Below are positions 11,500-63,265 of a stretch of DNA of 64,000 bases, in pieces. Origin of the DNA: Parelaphostrongylus tenuis (taxonomy: Eukaryota; Nematoda; Chromadorea; Rhabditida; Metastrongylidae); the NCBI GenBank assembly GCA_019055375.1, contig JAHQIW010002152.1:16001-80000 (forward strand). Reading direction: 5' to 3'. A model generated the notes under the pieces. It was given only the letters and a program-made list of their open reading frames with translations, was not told the origin of the DNA and made no database searches. The first letter of the stretch is position 1. Each line of letters starts with the position of its first letter. Both the position numbers and the translations under genes were made by a program.

Positions 11500-11640
11500 A
11501 AGAGTGGTGAACAAAACGGGCGTCAGTAGCGCAACTGGTTGGAGCCCGCGCTTCCGGATAGAGTGAGATGTGGGTTCGAGTCCCGACTGATGCGAGAAGT
11601 TTCGCACACTCTATATCTATGGGTATATTTCCCTACGGAG
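11500..11640 (+). mobile_element. SINE-D copy
   Basis: The tRNA-like head is at 11521-11600. The acceptor-stem-like GCGTCAG pairs fully with CTGATGC, and the B-box is GGTTCGAGTCC. It is followed by TTTCGCACACTCTAT and a family tail (GGGTATATTT, then ACCGCT-AGCGGT in other copies). The anticodon arm does not fold as a real tRNA, so it is called a SINE. Confidence 0.7.
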
Positions 11641-13082: not shown

Positions 13083-16099
<3,017 letters not shown>

Positions 16100-17827: not shown

Positions 17828-17995
17828 TACCCAATAATGTGGAGTGCTGTGTAAAAGCTTTTGCTTCAGCCGGGATTCGAACCCAGATCTCACTCTTTCT
17901 GGAAGCGTAAGCTATCCGTTGCACCACCGACGCACCACATTATTGGGTATACTGTAACATCATATCACCGCAAGTGGCGGTCAGATAAAGAGAAT
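17828..17995 (-). mobile_element. SINE-D copy with inverted ends
   Basis: The minus-strand tRNA-like head at about 17935-17865 has B-box GGTTCGAATCCC. Outer inverted repeats are ATACCCAATAATGTGG (17828-17843) and its complement (17936-17951). The tail contains the ACCGCAAGTGGCGGT hairpin. Confidence 0.7.
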
Positions 17996-18839: not shown

Positions 18840-19560
18840 CCCCATCAGCGATAACACGTGGATCACATGTCGCCCATTGATGATCAAGTGACTCAAGCGG
18901 ACATTAGTAATACTTCCATTTTTCCCTATCACGTGTAAGAGTAGCCCAGTGGCCTCCTAGCTAACAAATTCGTCGAGCACTAAATCCTGAATTTCCGTAA
19001 AAAATCGCACCATTGGGTCGCTGGTCGTCTCCTTGTGGAAAGCTTGACATCCTGATGAATCCAGTCGGTAATAGCTCTCGTCCATCGGTTTTTATTGAAG
19101 CGCATCACGTGTCCGGCCCACCTTATCTTCGATAGCCTCGTGTGTAAAACCACATCTTTAATTTTCTGTCGTTGGCCTAGGTAAGAACTTCGTATCCTTT
19201 CTCCCATTTGCGAGATACGGGATACTCCTAGCATCCATCTTTCGACTGCGCTTTCAATAACGTCAGGTGAATTTTTAATTTGCTTACATAGCCACCACGT
19301 TATGGCAAATACAACCATTAAGTCGCATAGGTGGGCAAGGAGCTGGAATTCCTTATACTTTATACTGCATTAGCGATGCTTTTGAACGCTTCGCAAGCCG
19401 GCCGCTTCCTGCTGCTCAATTCTTGAGCTAACTTCATCATGTTCATTATTCGACCTAGATAGACGTACCGAAACGCTTGGAGAGTTTCATTTTGCTGAGT
19501 TTGACTGGGACAGAGAGTCTTCGTTAGCTTTGGTGTCGAAGATCATTCCCATCTAATAGT
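18840..19560 (-). pseudogene. RTE-type retrotransposon C-terminal fragment
   Basis: The best-preserved open stretch (18983-19318) includes ERWMLGVSRISQMGERI, KIRWAGHVMRF and WIHQDVKLSTRRRPATQW. These are the classical C-terminal motifs of RTE-like endonuclease/reverse-transcriptase ORFs in nematodes (ERRMLGIS, RWAGHV.R). An upstream frame near 19360-19500 contains ETLQAFRYVYLGRIMNM, matching the ET..YVYLGR region. Frameshifts and stops separate the parts. No catalytic domain remains. Confidence 0.75.
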
Positions 19561-19749: not shown

Positions 19750-20269
19750 AGAAAGGAAACATTCAGCCCTGCATTGAAGCAAGGAGGGTGGCGTATGTGG
19801 TGATGGCACAGTGTACTATGACACTGTACCATCACCACCTCTCAGTCGATAGATTTTTGCTGTTAGATCAAAACTATATCAAAAGATCGACTGTTTTTGA
19901 AACTGTGTTTTTGAGCTTAAATCATTCTTTTTTGGAATTATTTGAATGTTTTTTGGGGGTTTCAAAAACAGTCGATCTTTTGATATAGTTTTGATCTAAC
20001 AGCAAAAATCTATCGACTGAGAGGTGGTGATGGTACAGCGTCATAGTACACTGTGCCATCACCACATACGCCACCCTCCTTGCTTCAATGCAGGGCTGAA
20101 TGTGGGCGGGGGTCACTGATGAGGAGGACGAACCTCCGAAACACCGGTGTATGACCCTGGGCTTACCAACCCCTTTTTTGAGCTTAAATCATTCTTTTTT
20201 TGGAATTATATTGAATGTTTTTTGGGGGTTTCAAAAACAGTCGATCTTTTGATATAGAAAGGAAACATT
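19750..20269 (+). mobile_element. Hammerhead retroelement, family A, with 14-bp target-site duplication
   Basis: The 492-bp insertion 19764-20255 is flanked by AGAAAGGAAACATT (19750-19763 and 20256-20269). It has three parts. A left inverted arm 19764-19900 is nearly the exact complement of 19960-20102. Then comes a unit from about 19909 carrying the hammerhead. Then the start of a second unit follows at about 20172 (TTTTTGAGCTTAAATCATTC occurs at both starts, about 264 bp apart). Inverted plus tandem partial units resemble Penelope-like element terminal repeats. Symmetric ORFs at 19788-19988 and 19922-20116 are the two arms of the palindrome. Confidence 0.85.
20110..20157 (+). ncRNA. Type I hammerhead ribozyme
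   Basis: Stem I is GGGTCA (20110-20115) with TGACCC (20152-20157). The core is CTGATGA (20116-20122). Stem II is GGAGG/CCTCC (5 bp) with loop ACGAA. GAAA follows at 20138-20141. Stem III is ACAC/GTGT with a 2-nt loop, and A17 is at 20151, so cleavage is expected between 20151 and 20152. Every invariant core nucleotide is present. The very short stem III is typical of minimal hammerheads in metazoan retroelements, which often act as dimers. Confidence 0.92.
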
Positions 20270-29344: not shown

Positions 29345-31130
29345 TTCCAGAAACAGTTCACTTCAACCGACCCAGTCGCCAGTAGCTCTACCACGAGCTC
29401 CAAAAGGTTATCACATAGAAGAAAACGAAGACTAGGTTCGTTTAGTAATTCATACTTTCAACGTGCACTTATGGTGTACAGCGTCGTGCCATATCAATGC
29501 CATATATCAATTTCAGAAACAGTTCATTCCAACCGACCCAGTCGCCGGTAGCTCTACCACGAGCTCCAAAAGGTTATCACATAGAAGAAAACGAGAACTA
29601 GGTTCGTTTAGTAATTCATACTTTCAACGTGCACTTATGGTGTACAGCGTCGTGCCATATCAATGCCATATATCAATTTCAGAAACATTCATTCCAACCG
29701 ACCCAGTCGCCGGTAGCTCTACCACGAGCTCCAAAAGGTTATCACATAGAAGAAAACGAAGACTAGGTTCGTTTAGTAATTCATACTTTCAACGTGCACT
29801 TATGGTGTACAGCGTCGTGCCATATCAATGCCATATATCAATTTCAGAAACAGTTCATTCCAACCGACCCAGTCGCCGGTAGCTCTACCACGAGCTCCAA
29901 AAGGTTATCACATAGAAGAAAACGAGAACTAGGTTCGTTTAGTAATTCATACTTTCAACGTGCACTTATGGTGTACAGCGTCGTGCCATATCAATGCCAT
30001 ATATCAATTTCAGAAACAGTTCATTCCAACCGACCCAGTCGCCGGTAGCTCTACCACGAGCTCCAAAAGGTTATCACATAGAAGAAAACGAAGACTAGGT
30101 TCGTTTAGTAATTCATACTTTCAACGTCCACTTATGGTGTACAGCGTCGTGCCATATCAATGCCATATATCAATTTCAGAAACAGTTCATCCAACCGACC
30201 CAGTCGCCGGTATCTCTACCACGAGCTCCAAAGGTTATCACATAGAAGGAAACGAAGACTAGGTTCGTTTAGTAATTCATACTTTCACGTGCACTTATGG
30301 TGTACAGCGTCGTGCCATATCAATGCAATATATTAATTTCAGAAACAGTTCATTCCAACCGACTCAGTCGCCGGTAGCTTCTACCACGAGCTCCAAAAGG
30401 TTATCACATAGAAGAAAACGAAGACTAGGTTCGTTTAGTAATTCATACTTTCAACGTCCACTTATGGTGTACAGCGTCGTGCCATATCAATGCCATATAT
30501 CAATTTCAGAACAACAGTTCATTCTCATACCGACCCTAGTCGCCCGTTAGCTCTACCCCACGAGCTCCAAAAGGTTATCACATAGAAGAAAACGAAGACT
30601 AGGTTCGTTTAGTAATTCATACTTTCAACGTGCACTTATGGTGTACAGCGTCGTGCCATATCAATGCCATATATCAATTTCAGAACAGTTCATTCCAACC
30701 GACTCATCGCCGTAGCTCTACACGAGCTCAAAAGGTTTCACATAGAAACGAAGACTAGTTCGTTTATTCATACTTCAACGTGCACTTATGGTGTACAGCG
30801 TCGTGCCATATCAATGCAATATATTAATTTCAGAACAGTTCATTCACGACTCAGTCGCCGGTAGCTCTACCACGAGCTCCAAAAGGTTATCACATAGAAG
30901 AAAACGAAGACTAGGTTCGTTTAGTAATTCATACTTTCAACGTCCACTTATGGTGTACAGCGTCGTGCCATATCAATGCCATATATCAATTTCAGAACAG
31001 TTCATTCCAACCGACTCAGTCGCCGGTAGCTCTACACGAGCTCCAAAGGTTATCACATAGAAAACGAAGACTAGGTTCGTTTAGTAATTCATACTTTCAT
31101 CGTGCACTTATGGTGTACAGCGTCGTGCCA
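29345..31130 (+). repeat. 166-bp minisatellite, 11 units
   Basis: The TATGGTGTACAGCGTCG landmark occurs at 29470, 29636, 29801, 29967, 30133, 30296, 30463, 30637, 30787, 30949 and 31109. Spacing is 163-167 bp in most units and 150-174 bp in the last five. Units 2 and 4 share a GAGAACTAGG variant and odd units have GAAGACTAGG, a dimeric pattern. Units near 30325 and 30815 share ATGCAATATATTAAT. Many single-base indels occur at 30500-31080. The unit occurs once in the partner duplication (51070-51235). Confidence 0.95.
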
Positions 31131-34214: not shown

Positions 34215-34520
34215 AACGCTATATGAGAAACCTCCTAGAAAAAGGACATACAACGAAGTAGCCCGATATCTAAGCACCTGAATGATTACTAACATTCCTA
34301 TAAAAAGTTCTTGTTTAGCAGAAAGGATCGTTTGTTCATCGACTTCTGTCTAATAGAAAAAAACCACTCTATTGCTGTGAAATTGTAGATTATTATTACA
34401 GAAACTTTCAGGAGAGAATTGAGTGGTAATCAAAAATTCAACCTCAAGCGGGATTTGGACCCGCGTTTCATCCATATCGAAGAGCGTGTTGCCACTGCAC
34501 TACAGAACTTATATAAAAGT
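34215..34520. mobile_element. Foldback arm followed by a SINE-C copy
   Basis: 34215-34370 carries the foldback-family block (AATGATTACTAACATTCCTATAAAAAGTTC). 34425-34520 is a minus-orientation SINE-C with GGGATTTGGACCCGCGTTTCATCC (plus-strand reading). Confidence 0.55.
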
Positions 34521-41900: not shown

Positions 41901-44900
41901 TCTACAGAGCCACAACTGAATGGAGTTAATTATAGGTGTGTCGACAGGCCCTGTCCTAAAACCCAGAGCTGCTAGTGCCTCTCGGGTGCCTGCTGCTCCT
42001 TCTGTGAATTCCAGTACCTACCAGTCCAAAATCAGGTCGTCCACTGCCACTTGTCTGTGTGCCCATATCTATCGGTGTTACACACTCTGTTGTTCAACGT
42101 AGAAACAGTGAATGTTTAGCGAACAATCCCAAAAGCATTTGGCATTCATTAGCTCAAGGTCCAAGTAATATTCTCCTTGTACCTCGTCCGCACAATTTCC
42201 CTTACCCCGCGGTCAGTTGTGTTGCAGAAGTGATACTTTATTCATTTCCAATATGCAGTATAGTATGATTCAGTTTTTCTGATATGCTACTACACGGTTT
42301 TTTAACTGTTTCACGCAGTACTGAAAAATATGCTTAGTAATGTAGAGTGATGTGCAAAACTTTCGCGTCAGGCGAGACTAGAACCCGCACCTCGCTCTAT
42401 CCGGGAGCGCGTGGTCTGACCCGTTACACTACTGGCGCCCATTCTGCGCACCACTCTTTCTACGCTATAGCTCATCTATTTGTCAGCAGCCAGCCTTCAA
42501 CGGCCTGGCTCTGGTAGTCGGTATCCACATTCAACCCAGTCACCCTGACAGATATTGGGTATCAGATGATCAAATATGACTTCTTTTCTTTAACCGCTTC
42601 TAGCGGTGGTATGATGTTTCAAATAAACCATTGATATGTATCTGTAGGAAAGTTTTACTTTAGGACGTTGTGATATTGCCATAATTTAGACCACTTGATT
42701 GACAAATTCTTTAGACTTCCTTTCAATTAGATTTTCGTAGTAGATAGTAGTAGTATCTGGAAGAGGTTAATGACTGTAGAAGGGCAGCCATCAATGAGAA
42801 TCGACGGGAGGTGATGAGATACGAGTAAAACTTGGAATCTAGGTTCAGTTCAAATGGATTCAATGAGATTTATGCTCCTCTGATCAATTTTGTTGACGAG
42901 TGATTCCTTGCTACTCTAACTTCAAAACATGGCTGGAAAAAAATTAAACTTCACCATTGACGGTGAGTTTTACGTGAGCTTCAAGAGAGGGTAGGCGCAA
43001 ATTCGAAACCCACTTGAGGTTCTGAAATTGGCTCGTACCTCAGTACTCCTGTGACTGCATTTCGAATCTTATCCAGCCGAAAAAAGATTGAGCAGGAATT
43101 AAAAGTTGTACTTTATGGTATGATATCTACAGTGAGCAGTGCAATAAGTCAAGTTCAAGAAAATTTAAGAATGCTGCTCCCGTTCATGTCGAACCAGGTC
43201 ATCGTATTCTCCATGGCTGTGGAATGTAGTGCCCTACATCCTTTCAGAGGAAGTATGAAGTGTGTTGGTAGCAGATATTTCTTCTAAGTTGCGTGCAAGC
43301 ACACCACCCCATCAATGTTGGGCGAGGATTTCGGCTCTAAAGGCTGATGTAATGAGAGAAGATGTCTACTCTTAAAAGGTTGTGCTTTAATCTATGTTTT
43401 TTTTTCACAATTTTTGCATGACTCGTCATTACAGATTAATGTGCTAACGTGCTGCTTCGGCTGTTGCGTGACTATTCCGTCCTTTTCATGAATGCCGTAG
43501 AATTTGCTCCAGACGATTCTCCTTGCATGCTTAAGGGTATCCGAGCTGAGGCGTTGCTAGGCGTATAGTTGATTGATTGTAAAAGAGTGTTTGAGAAGAT
43601 AATCGAACCAGAGCAGTGCTTGTTACCTCTTTCTGATGCACTGTCTCACTGACCACTGCGCTACCCTCACACAGATTTACTCTCAAAGAATTCATTTTCA
43701 GCTTGACATATTATACAATGACGAGGAAAGGTGAGCATGAGTAAGCAGTAGAGCGATCAATGGAATTTGAGAATACAAGTATTCCTTTGTGGTGCTGAAC
43801 TATATTCCCACTGAAAATGTAAGTAAACCTCTCCAGGCTAGCAAGGGCTTATTTCCATCCGAGATTTTAGTCGAGTTTTGACATAAGAACCGCCACAAGC
43901 AATGCAGTGAACCGGGGCCCTCTTGTTCTACTAGTACTTTTGCATACTTTGTTGATTGTCTTACAGTGTGTTGTTTATCTTCACTGTGTCGATCCCCAGT
44001 ACCTCTAGCATTTAATTCGTTCTCTTCGTCTTCTTCTGAAACATCGCAGAATGCCGGTTGAGCACGTCTGCTTGCCATCTTGAGGATAGCGCGGCTGTGG
44101 CGCTCCATAGAGCGCTGCTGTTGCCTACCGGAGAGCGTTGAGGGCGGGGTTTAGAGAGTGCGCCTCGGCGAACATCACAACAACTCGATCACGGCGCCCT
44201 CGATCTGTGAGTGCACAACACCTATTTTGTTTTACGGCTGAACCTTTTTTTCTGAGCATGCCAGGAAGCAGCCAGCACTCACTATTAGTTGCTCTGCACT
44301 CGTTCATGTTGCTGTTACTCCACTGTATTTTCCCACAGCTGATTTCTTATCAAGTCTTTCTTCAGAATAGTTTTGGTTGACGTTTCGTAGAGGGCTCTCC
44401 TCGGGACAATTTTCTTCTCAGATTCTCTATTGGCACGGTTTTTGCAGGAATTACAGTGCTAAGATTTGACCATACTGAAGCACCTTCATGCGCTAGGCTC
44501 GTGCAGTGCGAGAAGTCCCATCAACCAGTCGCATGTATTGAGTTGCTTAGAAATTTTTCAGACTTTACCGTTTTTGATGTAGTGTGCAGAAACGTTTGCA
44601 TCAGCTGGTACTTGAAATCAAATCTCACTCTATTCGGGAGCGTGTGCTGAACCGTTGCACCACCAACGCTCGTTTTGCACAGCACTTTTTCACGCTACAA
44701 CGCGTTATCTGTCAACAGCCAACCGTCGACGGTCTGGTGGAGCATCCGCATGGCATTGAACCCACTTATGCTATCAGATTTTGGATATCAATAATCAGTC
44801 GGGATTCATTCATTTGACCGCCTATTGCGGTGTTATGATGTTGCAATAAACTCAATGATGTAGAGTGGTGCATCAGTTGCATCAGCGGGGACTTGAACAA

Positions 44901-57904: not shown

Positions 57905-59560
57905 ATACCGAAATTTGACCGTGGTCTCATAAAAACAGTCAAAACAATCAATATGATATTTCATAAATACCACACAAGATCAATCGGGTGTACAATTAGT
58001 GATTTCTTTCATGATGACACGTGTAAATAATACGTCTGCATGTCCTCTATATAAGGTTTTGTAGTGCTCCCTTGATCCATTCAACGAAGATGTGCATACT
58101 ATTTGTGTCCAGTATTTCATATACAATAGTCAGTTTTTCGTTTTTGATCAAGAATTTATTTTAGTCATTTGTTCAATCAAAAATGAGAAACGGACTACTG
58201 TATATGATGCAAATAGCATGCAAAACTTCGTTGTATGGATCAAGTGAGCACCACAGAAACACCGAGATTTGAATAGAAACGAATAATAATAGTGTGAATA
58301 AACATGCAGAAAATGCAAAGACGAAATGAGTGAAAATTTATAAAAAATATAATATATTTACGAGTTTAAGGTTGGGATCGTGGTGGGTGGCTCATCGTTA
58401 TCTTAATCGGTGGTGTTGCGCTCACGTGGCCAGACAGTGCGTCCTACCACGTTCGCTGGATCGTATTTTGTCTCCACATATTATCTACCTTCATAATACT
58501 CCATCAAAACGTGACAACCCAGCGGTATCAAGCTCAGTCTCACCCAGGTTGCGGTGCTCTTCATTTTCGTAGGCCGAAAGAAGCCATGGCTTTTAGTATG
58601 TCAAATTCTCAAAAAACTGATTCACTGATTCTATTATCATGTTCGTTTTTTCACAGCTAACTGTGTTCTTTTGCTTTCTTCACTCATTCTCGCGGTCTTT
58701 TTCCAGTTTTCAACCTTAAGCAAATGGTTCGCCTCCATTCGCAGCAAACTTTATAGGTTGAAATTTAAATCATCATGTTCATAGGTTTTTCTGGAAAAGA
58801 ATTGATTAATCTTCATAGTTTTCTAGATGTTCCACACTCAGTGCCTGGTCTTTGCCGTGTATATCTGTCTTCACAGCAGTCACAGTAGCAAAATCAAAGT
58901 GAATGTCTCTGTCGACTGCATTCGTTGGGGCGCGGCGACTCAATGGATGTGACATTAGGTACGAGAAAAAGTGGTGAAAGTTGAAGGTAAAACGTAATCG
59001 GTCTTAGAGGGAGCGCTATACACTCAACTCCATTGCTCATCCTGGAATAACTTAACATATATTAAGGCTGTACATTAACTTGCCATGTCCTACTTAGTAG
59101 AGTCGGTGTTTCTATTCTCCAAAACAAATTTTTGGCCAATTTGCTGGGTGAGGCCGAGATACGGATTGGATTAACGACCACGTGTGTGTGTTGGAAATGC
59201 CCTTTAACCAATGCTTCACACACACACACACCCGTACGATATGAAACTATGAGAGTGAAAAGCTTATGGGAAGAGATGTCACCTTAATTGAAGAAAATGA
59301 ATATTGTGAGTCATTTCATAATATTGGGGATATAGAATGAAGAACTTATAGGTGGACTAGGTAAAGGCACTTAGTGTTATTTGATATGCTTGTTTTATCT
59401 GCTGAAAGGAATACTTAATCTGGGGAAGTTTTACAGTTCCCTGTTACTCGAGAATATGTTACCTACTACCTGTTACTTCTTGTTACCTATTACCTATTAC
59501 TCCTTATCCAACGACTGAGGTCGAATATTCATTGTCGCCATTTAATGGAAAATATCCATG
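57905..59560. other. No recognised gene
   Basis: Contains a short CA/TG run at 59217-59232 and a TTACC-rich tract at 59456-59512. The ORF 58330-58572 has no supporting signals. Confidence 0.4.
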
Positions 59561-61851: not shown

Positions 61852-62075
61852 AATCTCGTATCTAAATCAAAAGATCGACTGTTTTTGAAACCCCGCAAAA
61901 AACATTCAATATACACTCATTGTACACTGTTCCATCACCACATACGCCTCCCTCCTTGCTTCAATGCAGGGCTGAATGTGGGGCGGGGGTCACTGACGAG
62001 GAGGACGAACCTCCGAAACACCGGTGTATGACCCTGGCGTAACAACCTCGTTTTTGAGCTTAAATCTCGTATCTG
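61852..62075 (+). mobile_element. Hammerhead retroelement, family A, second copy
   Basis: The roughly 200-bp insertion 61864-62063 lies between copies of AATCTCGTATCT (61852-61863 and about 62064-62075). It shares TCAAAAGATCGACTGTTTTTGAAACC, TCCTTGCTTCAATGCAGGGC, the ribozyme and TTTTTGAGCTTAAAT with 19764-20255 but lacks the long palindrome. Confidence 0.85.
61987..62034 (+). ncRNA. Type I hammerhead ribozyme, second copy
   Basis: Stem I GGGTCA/TGACCC, core CTGACGA (position 7 may be any base), stem II GGAGG/CCTCC with ACGAA loop, GAAA, stem III ACAC/GTGT with CG loop, A17 at 62028. Complete except for the allowed U7C change. Confidence 0.9.
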
Positions 62076-63159: not shown

Positions 63160-63265
63160 ACTGGGTGGTGAGCAAAAACACGGCTCAGGCTGGAATCGAA
63201 CCCGCGTTTCATCCATACCGGGGACGCGTGCTACTGCCACTACATCACCAAAGCACATTTACGCA
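63160..63265 (-). mobile_element. SINE-C copy
   Basis: The minus strand reads TGGTGATGTAGTGGCAGTAGC (A-box), GGTATGGATGAAACGCGGGTTCGATTCC with a perfect B-box, then GAGCCGTGTTTTTGCTCACCAC. Confidence 0.75.

Follow-up and report, generated by a model that had tools for sequence, protein, structure and literature searches.

The 64-kb stretch of DNA analysed here (64,000 nt; hereafter the window) contains two insertions of a short repeat that carries a complete hammerhead ribozyme motif. The sequence fits a small non-coding mobile element, namely a non-autonomous non-LTR retrozyme of the metazoan type, which is probably mobilised by the protein of resident Penelope-like elements (PLEs) through two-sided target-primed reverse transcription of a unit-repeated RNA. 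This reading is built on features that were observed directly: the anatomy of the insertions, the positions of their outer ends, a rule in the sample by which one end lies at each of two sites, the same rule in PLEs of this genome, and motifs shared by the two kinds of element.

The two hammerhead copies and their parts were located as follows.

20109..20158, plus strand: hammerhead copy 1 (descriptor scan, shuffles and forced-fold energy)
20109-20115 and 20152-20158, plus strand: stem I of copy 1
20116-20122, plus strand: CTGATGA core of copy 1
20123-20127 and 20133-20137, plus strand: stem II of copy 1
20138-20140, plus strand: GAA of copy 1
20141-20143 and 20148-20150, plus strand: stem III of copy 1, with a CCGG loop
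20151/20152, plus strand: predicted cleavage site of copy 1
61986..62035, plus strand: hammerhead copy 2, with C at N7 (descriptor scan, shuffles and forced fold)
62028/62029, plus strand: predicted cleavage site of copy 2

The first-pass annotation had claimed that the stems pair and that the core is intact in both copies, and a descriptor scan of both strands bore this out. Each copy had the CTGANGA, GAAA and H17 = A core, a 7-bp stem I with one G-U pair (GGGGTCA/TGACCCT), and a closed stem II (GGAGG/CCTCC). It had also stated that the copies differ slightly and keep the ribozyme; indeed, N7 (T or C) was the sole difference over the 50 nt. The assignment to type I was upheld by the sequence (CUGANGA, GAAA and UH core, three helices, helix I open), but the 4-bp stem III that went with it was not. 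Stem III is the perfect palindrome ACACCGGTGT, so that in cis it would form 3 bp closed by a CCGG loop; a fourth pair was dismissed because the resulting 2-nt loop is sterically implausible. Alternatively, two copies may form a longer palindromic duplex with each other.

With a relaxed descriptor, the two copies were the only matches on either strand of the window, and matches occurred in 19 of 300 dinucleotide-shuffled windows. A motif as strong as the real one appeared once per 300 dinucleotide-shuffled windows, and a comparable motif with compact loops once per 6000 shuffled windows. These results confirmed an intact hammerhead motif, above chance expectation, in both copies. When the hammerhead was forced, the energy was -15.6 kcal/mol for each copy, compared with an unconstrained minimum free energy (MFE) of -18.0 for copy 1 (2.4 lower) and -17.6 for copy 2; the plain fold favours other pairing at the centre, and the MFE structure is therefore not the hammerhead. 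In the predicted fold of copy 1, helix I runs on beyond a small internal loop.

According to the first-pass annotation, covariance scores at background for both copies would refute the ribozyme, and a score at background was what the Rfam search returned. No hammerhead was found at gathering or in an E-value search of the whole window, and a 201-nt search of copy 1 gave Hammerhead_3 only (E 1.9; 14.4 bits, with the cut-off at 48.5), in a run that listed no type I model and had no positive control. Viral and bacterial sequence collections gave 0 matches. In our judgement, the genome-wide copies described below outweigh the background-level Rfam score.

In the surrounding genome assembly (481.5 Mb), insertion 1 had at least 372 BLAST matches. 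The ribozyme half, allowing at most 2 mismatches, had 4597 matches (2350 + 2247) over the whole genome, compared with 0 for the reversed control of the same pattern. The repeat unit is 270 nt long with 44% GC, and its longest ATG ORF is 41 aa, so that the RT and GIY-YIG coding capacity of a PLE is absent. At one locus (L031, C1459:1-9900), 14.1 minus-strand and 16.7 plus-strand units of 270 nt are arranged head to head. The 29 units of this array mix T and C at one column and T and G at another, in both arms; at one site with two alleles, 22/29 units have T. This mixing speaks against one unit-length circle as the sole template, an arrangement that was consequently unsupported for L031. Folded as a circle, the unit was more structured than its shuffles (z -4.8), and the linear form of 267 nt gave a z of -5.5.

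These properties correspond to those of metazoan non-LTR retrozymes: a type I hammerhead, a tandem non-coding unit within 150-450 bp, a GC content below 45-50%, and target-site duplications longer than 4 bp (here 9-15 nt, in 34 distinct insertions among 41 loci). The first-pass annotation had likened the motif to hammerheads of PLEs and other metazoan retroelements; the likeness to retroelements held, while the carrier appears to be retrozyme-like and non-autonomous, and its motif is distinct from the PLE minimal hammerhead. Three further loci (L057:2990-3440, L072:75-553 and L081) hold older retrozyme copies or a subfamily, in which most aligned pieces are 77-83% identical and short pieces 91-100% identical; loop II is changed in these copies, and some of their ribozymes are broken.

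Positions in the unit are given relative to a reference (U) taken from the plus array of L031, with U1 as the base directly 3' of the predicted cut. The two insertions of the window have the following anatomy.

19764..20255, plus strand: retrozyme insertion 1
19764-19903: antisense arm of insertion 1, U216 to U77, separated from the sense arm by a 4-nt filler
19908-20255: sense arm of insertion 1, U24 to U104, 1.3 units
19750..19763: left target-site duplication of insertion 1, AGAAAGGAAACATT, 14 nt
20256..20269: right target-site duplication of insertion 1, AGAAAGGAAACATT, 14 nt
20204..20212, plus strand: site A motif AATTATATT, U53-61, common to a subtype of this genome's PLEs
20237..20248, plus strand: site B motif ACAGTCGATCTT, U86-97, 11/12 common to PLEs
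61864..62062, plus strand: retrozyme insertion 2, truncated, with the antisense arm to about 61913 and the sense arm from about 61917
61852..61863: left target-site duplication of insertion 2, AATCTCGTATCT, 12 nt
62063..62074: right target-site duplication of insertion 2, AATCTCGTATCT, 12 nt

The exact 14-nt and 12-nt duplications agree with the earlier statement that the copies sit at separate loci, each with its own target-site duplication. Insertion 1 contains a 145-nt inverted repeat, and its sense arm of 1.3 units accounts for a direct repeat at 267-269 nt.

To define the insertion signature, 41 loci were mapped as a discovery set, consisting of the window's two insertions and 39 from the BLAST list of insertion 1, a list that is biased to two-armed copies resembling the query. 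Windows for the end sites A (U46-66) and B (U98-116) were drawn on this set, and 12 later loci, taken near the head of the contig-ordered list of ribozyme-half matches, were the sole fresh test; the total sample was 46 insertions (34 + 12), drawn from a family whose ribozyme copies number in the thousands. The typical insertion is head-to-head, with an antisense arm followed by a sense arm. The discovery set included 35 distinct two-armed loci, and 5/41 loci were one-armed. Exact duplications of 9-15 nt, mostly 12-14 nt, flanked 34 distinct insertions, 33 of them two-armed (one duplicate locus was dropped), and a duplication of at least 9 nt was missing at 6/41 discovery loci. The duplications had an AT content of 75%, compared with 61% in the flanks. 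Among the 12 later loci, L072 and L082 had no duplication, and their ends were taken from alignment edges; the 27-nt duplication match of L073 is an AT microsatellite, and the duplications of L074, L078 and L079 were found allowing one mismatch.

The outer ends fell into two clusters about 47 nt apart, corresponding to A and B. In the discovery set 59/66 outer ends lay at A or B, and in the two-armed copies of the later loci 17/18 did so. The pairing of the ends in the 33 two-armed discovery insertions was BA in 15, AB in 10, BB in 1 and AA in 0, and the remainder had one end elsewhere (o), with Bo in 4, oB in 2 and Ao in 1. The 12 later loci included nine two-armed copies; of these, 8 were AB or BA, and 1 had B and an end elsewhere. 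The 3 one-armed copies each had an end at A. The left end of one-armed L074 at U106 (B) is an extrapolation 16 nt past the alignment and was excluded from the counts. Pooled, the 42 two-armed insertions comprised 33 AB or BA, 1 BB, 0 AA and 8 with one end elsewhere (Fisher 2e-8 for the A/B pairing, in the 34 insertions with both ends classed). The PLE-type signature of inverted copy, duplication and one-arm tail was thus present in 33/42 two-armed retrozyme insertions; the 9 exceptions to the one-of-each rule include insertion 1 of the window, with its left end at U216.

Relative to the motifs, A-class ends lay -7 to +13 nt from the start of the A motif (median +4, n=27), and B-class ends 12-30 nt after the start of the B motif (median 18, n=33). 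Inner junctions were not restricted to A and B (20/70), and they showed an overlap of 2-9 nt in 15/33. Microhomology between primer and RNA at the A and B ends averaged 1.95 nt (60 ends), compared with 0.59 in swapped controls, a difference that counts as weak evidence because the way of delimiting duplications inflates the value. Two loci, L042 (C2291:365400-368800) and L043 (277200-279900), share an identical inner junction (U6|U104 with the 6-nt filler tacgat) and differ in their duplications and outer ends. One possibility is the renewed insertion of an RNA that already carried an old junction.

PLEs of the same genome were examined for the same signature. In a GIY-YIG search, 150 of 1723 candidates were scored, and every match listed was above the cut-off; 23 of the matches listed lie in open frames of at least 600 aa, the longest being 902 aa. 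Neighbouring matches at most 6 kb apart were oriented (-,+) in 20 cases, (+,+) in 1, (-,-) in 1 and (+,-) in 0, i.e. 20 head-to-head and 0 tail-to-tail pairs among the matches listed. One locus with head-to-head arms (L083) has an 893-aa ORF with RVT_1 (1.1e-11) and GIY-YIG (2.4e-7) domains; a comparison of the PLE ORF with solved structures by sequence gave no match. Seven pairs were chosen by hand from the 20, and three of them (C406, C3232 and C4824) were read by eye and verified by script. All six scoreable pairs had duplications of 12-13 nt and one end each at A and B; relative to the start codon, the two ends of a pair lay at ATG-6 to -16 and at ATG+29 to +37. In the seventh, C411, which was unscoreable, the right side enters another copy and the left end lies outside A and B. 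Measured from the A motif, which 4 pairs have, the PLE ends lay at -2 to +8, and measured from the B motif (6 pairs) they lay at 14-21; these values are inside the retrozyme ranges of -7 to 13 and 12 to 30, respectively. Only a minimal hammerhead-like motif was found in the PLEs examined: their 3' region has the putative motif GGCTCTGAAGAAGGCGAACTGCCGAAACGTCAGCT (L083:5288-5322). In this motif an additional A precedes stem II, and the hammerhead descriptor did not detect it.

Of the motifs shared by PLE and retrozyme, AATTATATTGAA matched at 12/12 (in the C240 PLE) and ACAGTCGRTCTT at 11/12. The C240 block AATTATATTGAA...ACAGTCGGTCTT aligns with the retrozyme block AATTATATTGAA...ACAGTCGATCTT at offsets of 30 and 33 nt. 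The gapped alignment score of C240 was reached by 1/2000 shuffles of the retrozyme block and 4/2000 of the PLE block, and that of C4824 by 39/2000 and 73/2000, respectively, the blocks having been picked after the motifs had been noticed. For single ungapped motifs, the shuffles equalling the match numbered 17 for C240, 53 for C416, 71 for C411 and 155 for C4824, of 2000 each; in C416 and C411 the B motif is present and the A motif diverged. When the whole unit was compared with PLE stretches, the best local match was equalled by 20/300 shuffles for L091, 69/300 for L095 and 191/300 for L083, and such whole-unit matches are not clearly above chance.

On this basis we propose the following course, in which we infer the cleavage, the circularisation and the contact between protein and RNA. 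Genomic retrozyme arrays would be transcribed, and the hammerhead of each 270-nt unit would cut the oligomer RNA. The resident PLE RT/GIY-YIG protein would bind uncut oligomers or re-ligated circles, the contact being a block that is similar to the start region of the PLE itself and contains the start sites A (about U57) and B (about U103). In an AT-rich target, each strand would be cut by the protein, with about 12-14 nt between the two cuts, and the 3' end of one target strand would prime at A and that of the other at B. Both cDNAs would extend upstream, often for more than one full unit, and would be joined head-to-head, often via microhomology, leaving an antisense arm and a sense arm between duplications. 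We lean towards the view that retrozymes are to PLEs what SINEs are to LINEs. The retrozyme would carry the bipartite PLE start region (AATTATATT ... ACAGTCGRTCTT), each cut strand would have to take a start site other than its partner's, as though both sites were bound by a protein dimer at once, and the unit-repeated RNA made by the ribozyme would let both strands be copied for more than a full turn.

Published work on PLEs describes the component activities. In work on a lizard PLE (PMC11167929), the purified protein cleaved both strands of the target and extended them, with synthesis beginning at two neighbouring positions inside the RNA and no preference for either strand. The start sites in that report are not homologous to the cut DNA; some microhomology was seen at the ends here. 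Rotifer PLE copies have an inverted pLTR and target-site duplications, and one side may carry a 31-bp tail (PMC3846280). The retrozyme end pattern is what these properties predict with a non-coding ribozyme RNA as the template. The use of one strand per start site is not stated in the parts of PMC11167929 and PMC3846280 drawn on here, and the one-of-each rule limits models of PLE insertion on both strands. Since, within a single genome, retrozyme and PLE share one kind of insertion scar and have it at similar sequences, mobilisation by the PLE is directly testable.

Inverted arms might also be ordinary 5' inversions, produced if a LINE, for example of the RTE type, mobilised the retrozyme by twin priming. 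Twin priming likewise yields 5' inversions, and insertion 2 of the window, taken alone, is compatible with it; moreover, closely upstream of insertion 1 lies an ORF (18983-19369, minus strand) that resembles the 3' end of an RTE-type LINE and, at the protein level, the C terminus of its product. However, a LINE is expected to fix one 3' end, whereas two end sites, one per arm, were found in 33/42 two-armed insertions, and the two-site ends of the PLEs (6/6 scoreable), with their common motifs, also argue against a LINE, so that this route is improbable. Snap-back self-priming, in which a single cDNA folds at a hairpin and copies itself into a head-to-head product, would accord with internal complementarities of the unit (CCCC/GGGG and CATTC/GAATG) and with the recurrence of inner junctions near U14/U76 and U24/U63, and self-priming has been proposed for PLEs (PMC3846280). 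The second arm would then be a DNA copy ending at the start of the first, unlike the A/B pairing, and insertions with arms of very unequal length argue against it as well; we regard it as very improbable. A chance motif within satellite or foldback DNA would explain the background Rfam scores, but it is scarcely credible in view of the rarity of comparable motifs in shuffles (1 per 6000), the thousands of copies that retain the ribozyme half, and the duplications that flank single insertions.

Mobilisation by the PLE protein could in principle proceed with the ribozyme as a passenger, uncut RNA being inserted and the hammerhead having no present role. In keeping with this, 63/66 arms seem to extend across the cleavage site, the inner ends form a broad cluster at U1-81 (46/70) with no sharp run-off at U1, and no compensatory pair changes were found in the hammerhead stems among 35 distinct variants of 200 copies; in addition, for a lizard PLE, mutating the ribozyme left insertion in vitro normal (PMC11167929). 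The excess of inner ends at U1-81 is partly due to recurring complementary joins. A sharp cDNA run-off at the cleavage site was considered and rejected, since rotated queries showed that L041, L060 and L067 continue past U1, the apparent ends being alignment-edge artefacts. Sequence conservation points the other way. Over 200 copies the per-base deviation was 0.0075 in the hammerhead and 0.018 in the flanks, and within the hammerhead it was lower in the core (0.0045) and stems (0.0065) than in N7 and the loops (0.0135). The ribozyme was identical in 161/200 copies from the fetched loci, and it was intact in W2, L074 and L078 despite a flank divergence of 9-10%. Ten copies had flanks more than 8% diverged, and some of their ribozymes were broken, as dead copies are expected to decay. 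A passenger ribozyme is hence rather unlikely, and self-cleavage as part of the element's life cycle is plausible.

The element resembles the metazoan non-LTR retrozymes described in PMC7229834 (Cervera and de la Pena 2020) in its type I hammerhead, its short non-coding unit (150-450 bp) in tandem dimers to large arrays, its GC content below 45%, its duplications of more than 4 bp and its predicted highly paired circle; the insertions here are mostly head-to-head with two preferred end sites, an arrangement not described in the parts of that paper drawn on here. That paper regards LINEs or PLEs as possible movers, with PLEs a strong candidate, and the parts drawn on here hold no insertion-end evidence on the point. 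The link between PLEs and retrozymes was thus proposed previously, and the insertion ends and shared motifs reported here add support to it. The words nematod and worm are absent from its main text. If the host is a nematode, as the ubiquitin sequence in the window may suggest, natural hammerheads in that group may be unreported, none being evident from the title or abstract start of the papers listed by searches of the open-licence literature.

With PLEs (PMC3846280, PMC11167929) the retrozyme shares the head-to-head inverted copy, target-site duplications, internal RT starts, priming on both strands, and a tail of some 40-50 nt on one of the arms; unlike them, it encodes no RT or GIY-YIG, and its stems I, II and III are fuller. 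PLE minimal hammerheads are of type I with stem III absent or very short, and may act as a dimer (PMC7761336), whereas stem III of the retrozyme has 3 bp and a tetraloop, so that cleavage in cis may be possible. Plant LTR retrozymes are likewise non-coding with hammerheads and a circular RNA stage (predicted here), but they have a type III hammerhead, LTRs with PBS and PPT, 4-bp duplications and Gypsy machinery (PMC7229834).

Several other features were noted in the window. A tRNA match at 17862-17933 (minus strand) scored 34.1 bits at gathering, another at 42364-42438 (minus strand) scored 35.7 bits in the E-value search only, and weaker matches were seen at 11520-11594, 34440-34509 and 63181-63254; these are possibly tRNA-derived SINEs. 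Four frames at 13221-15052 (minus strand) have what we take, by eye, to be ubiquitin-unit sequence. Breaks separate the units, an arrangement like that of a polyubiquitin gene having introns or duplicates. A long hairpin-like stretch at 58082-58233 matched the MIR6140 model at 47.6 bits, below the cut-off of 140, and is possibly a small foldback element. At 29436-31057, a coding-looking repeated segment (VYSVVPYQCHISISE and its neighbours) occurs in several plus-strand frames.
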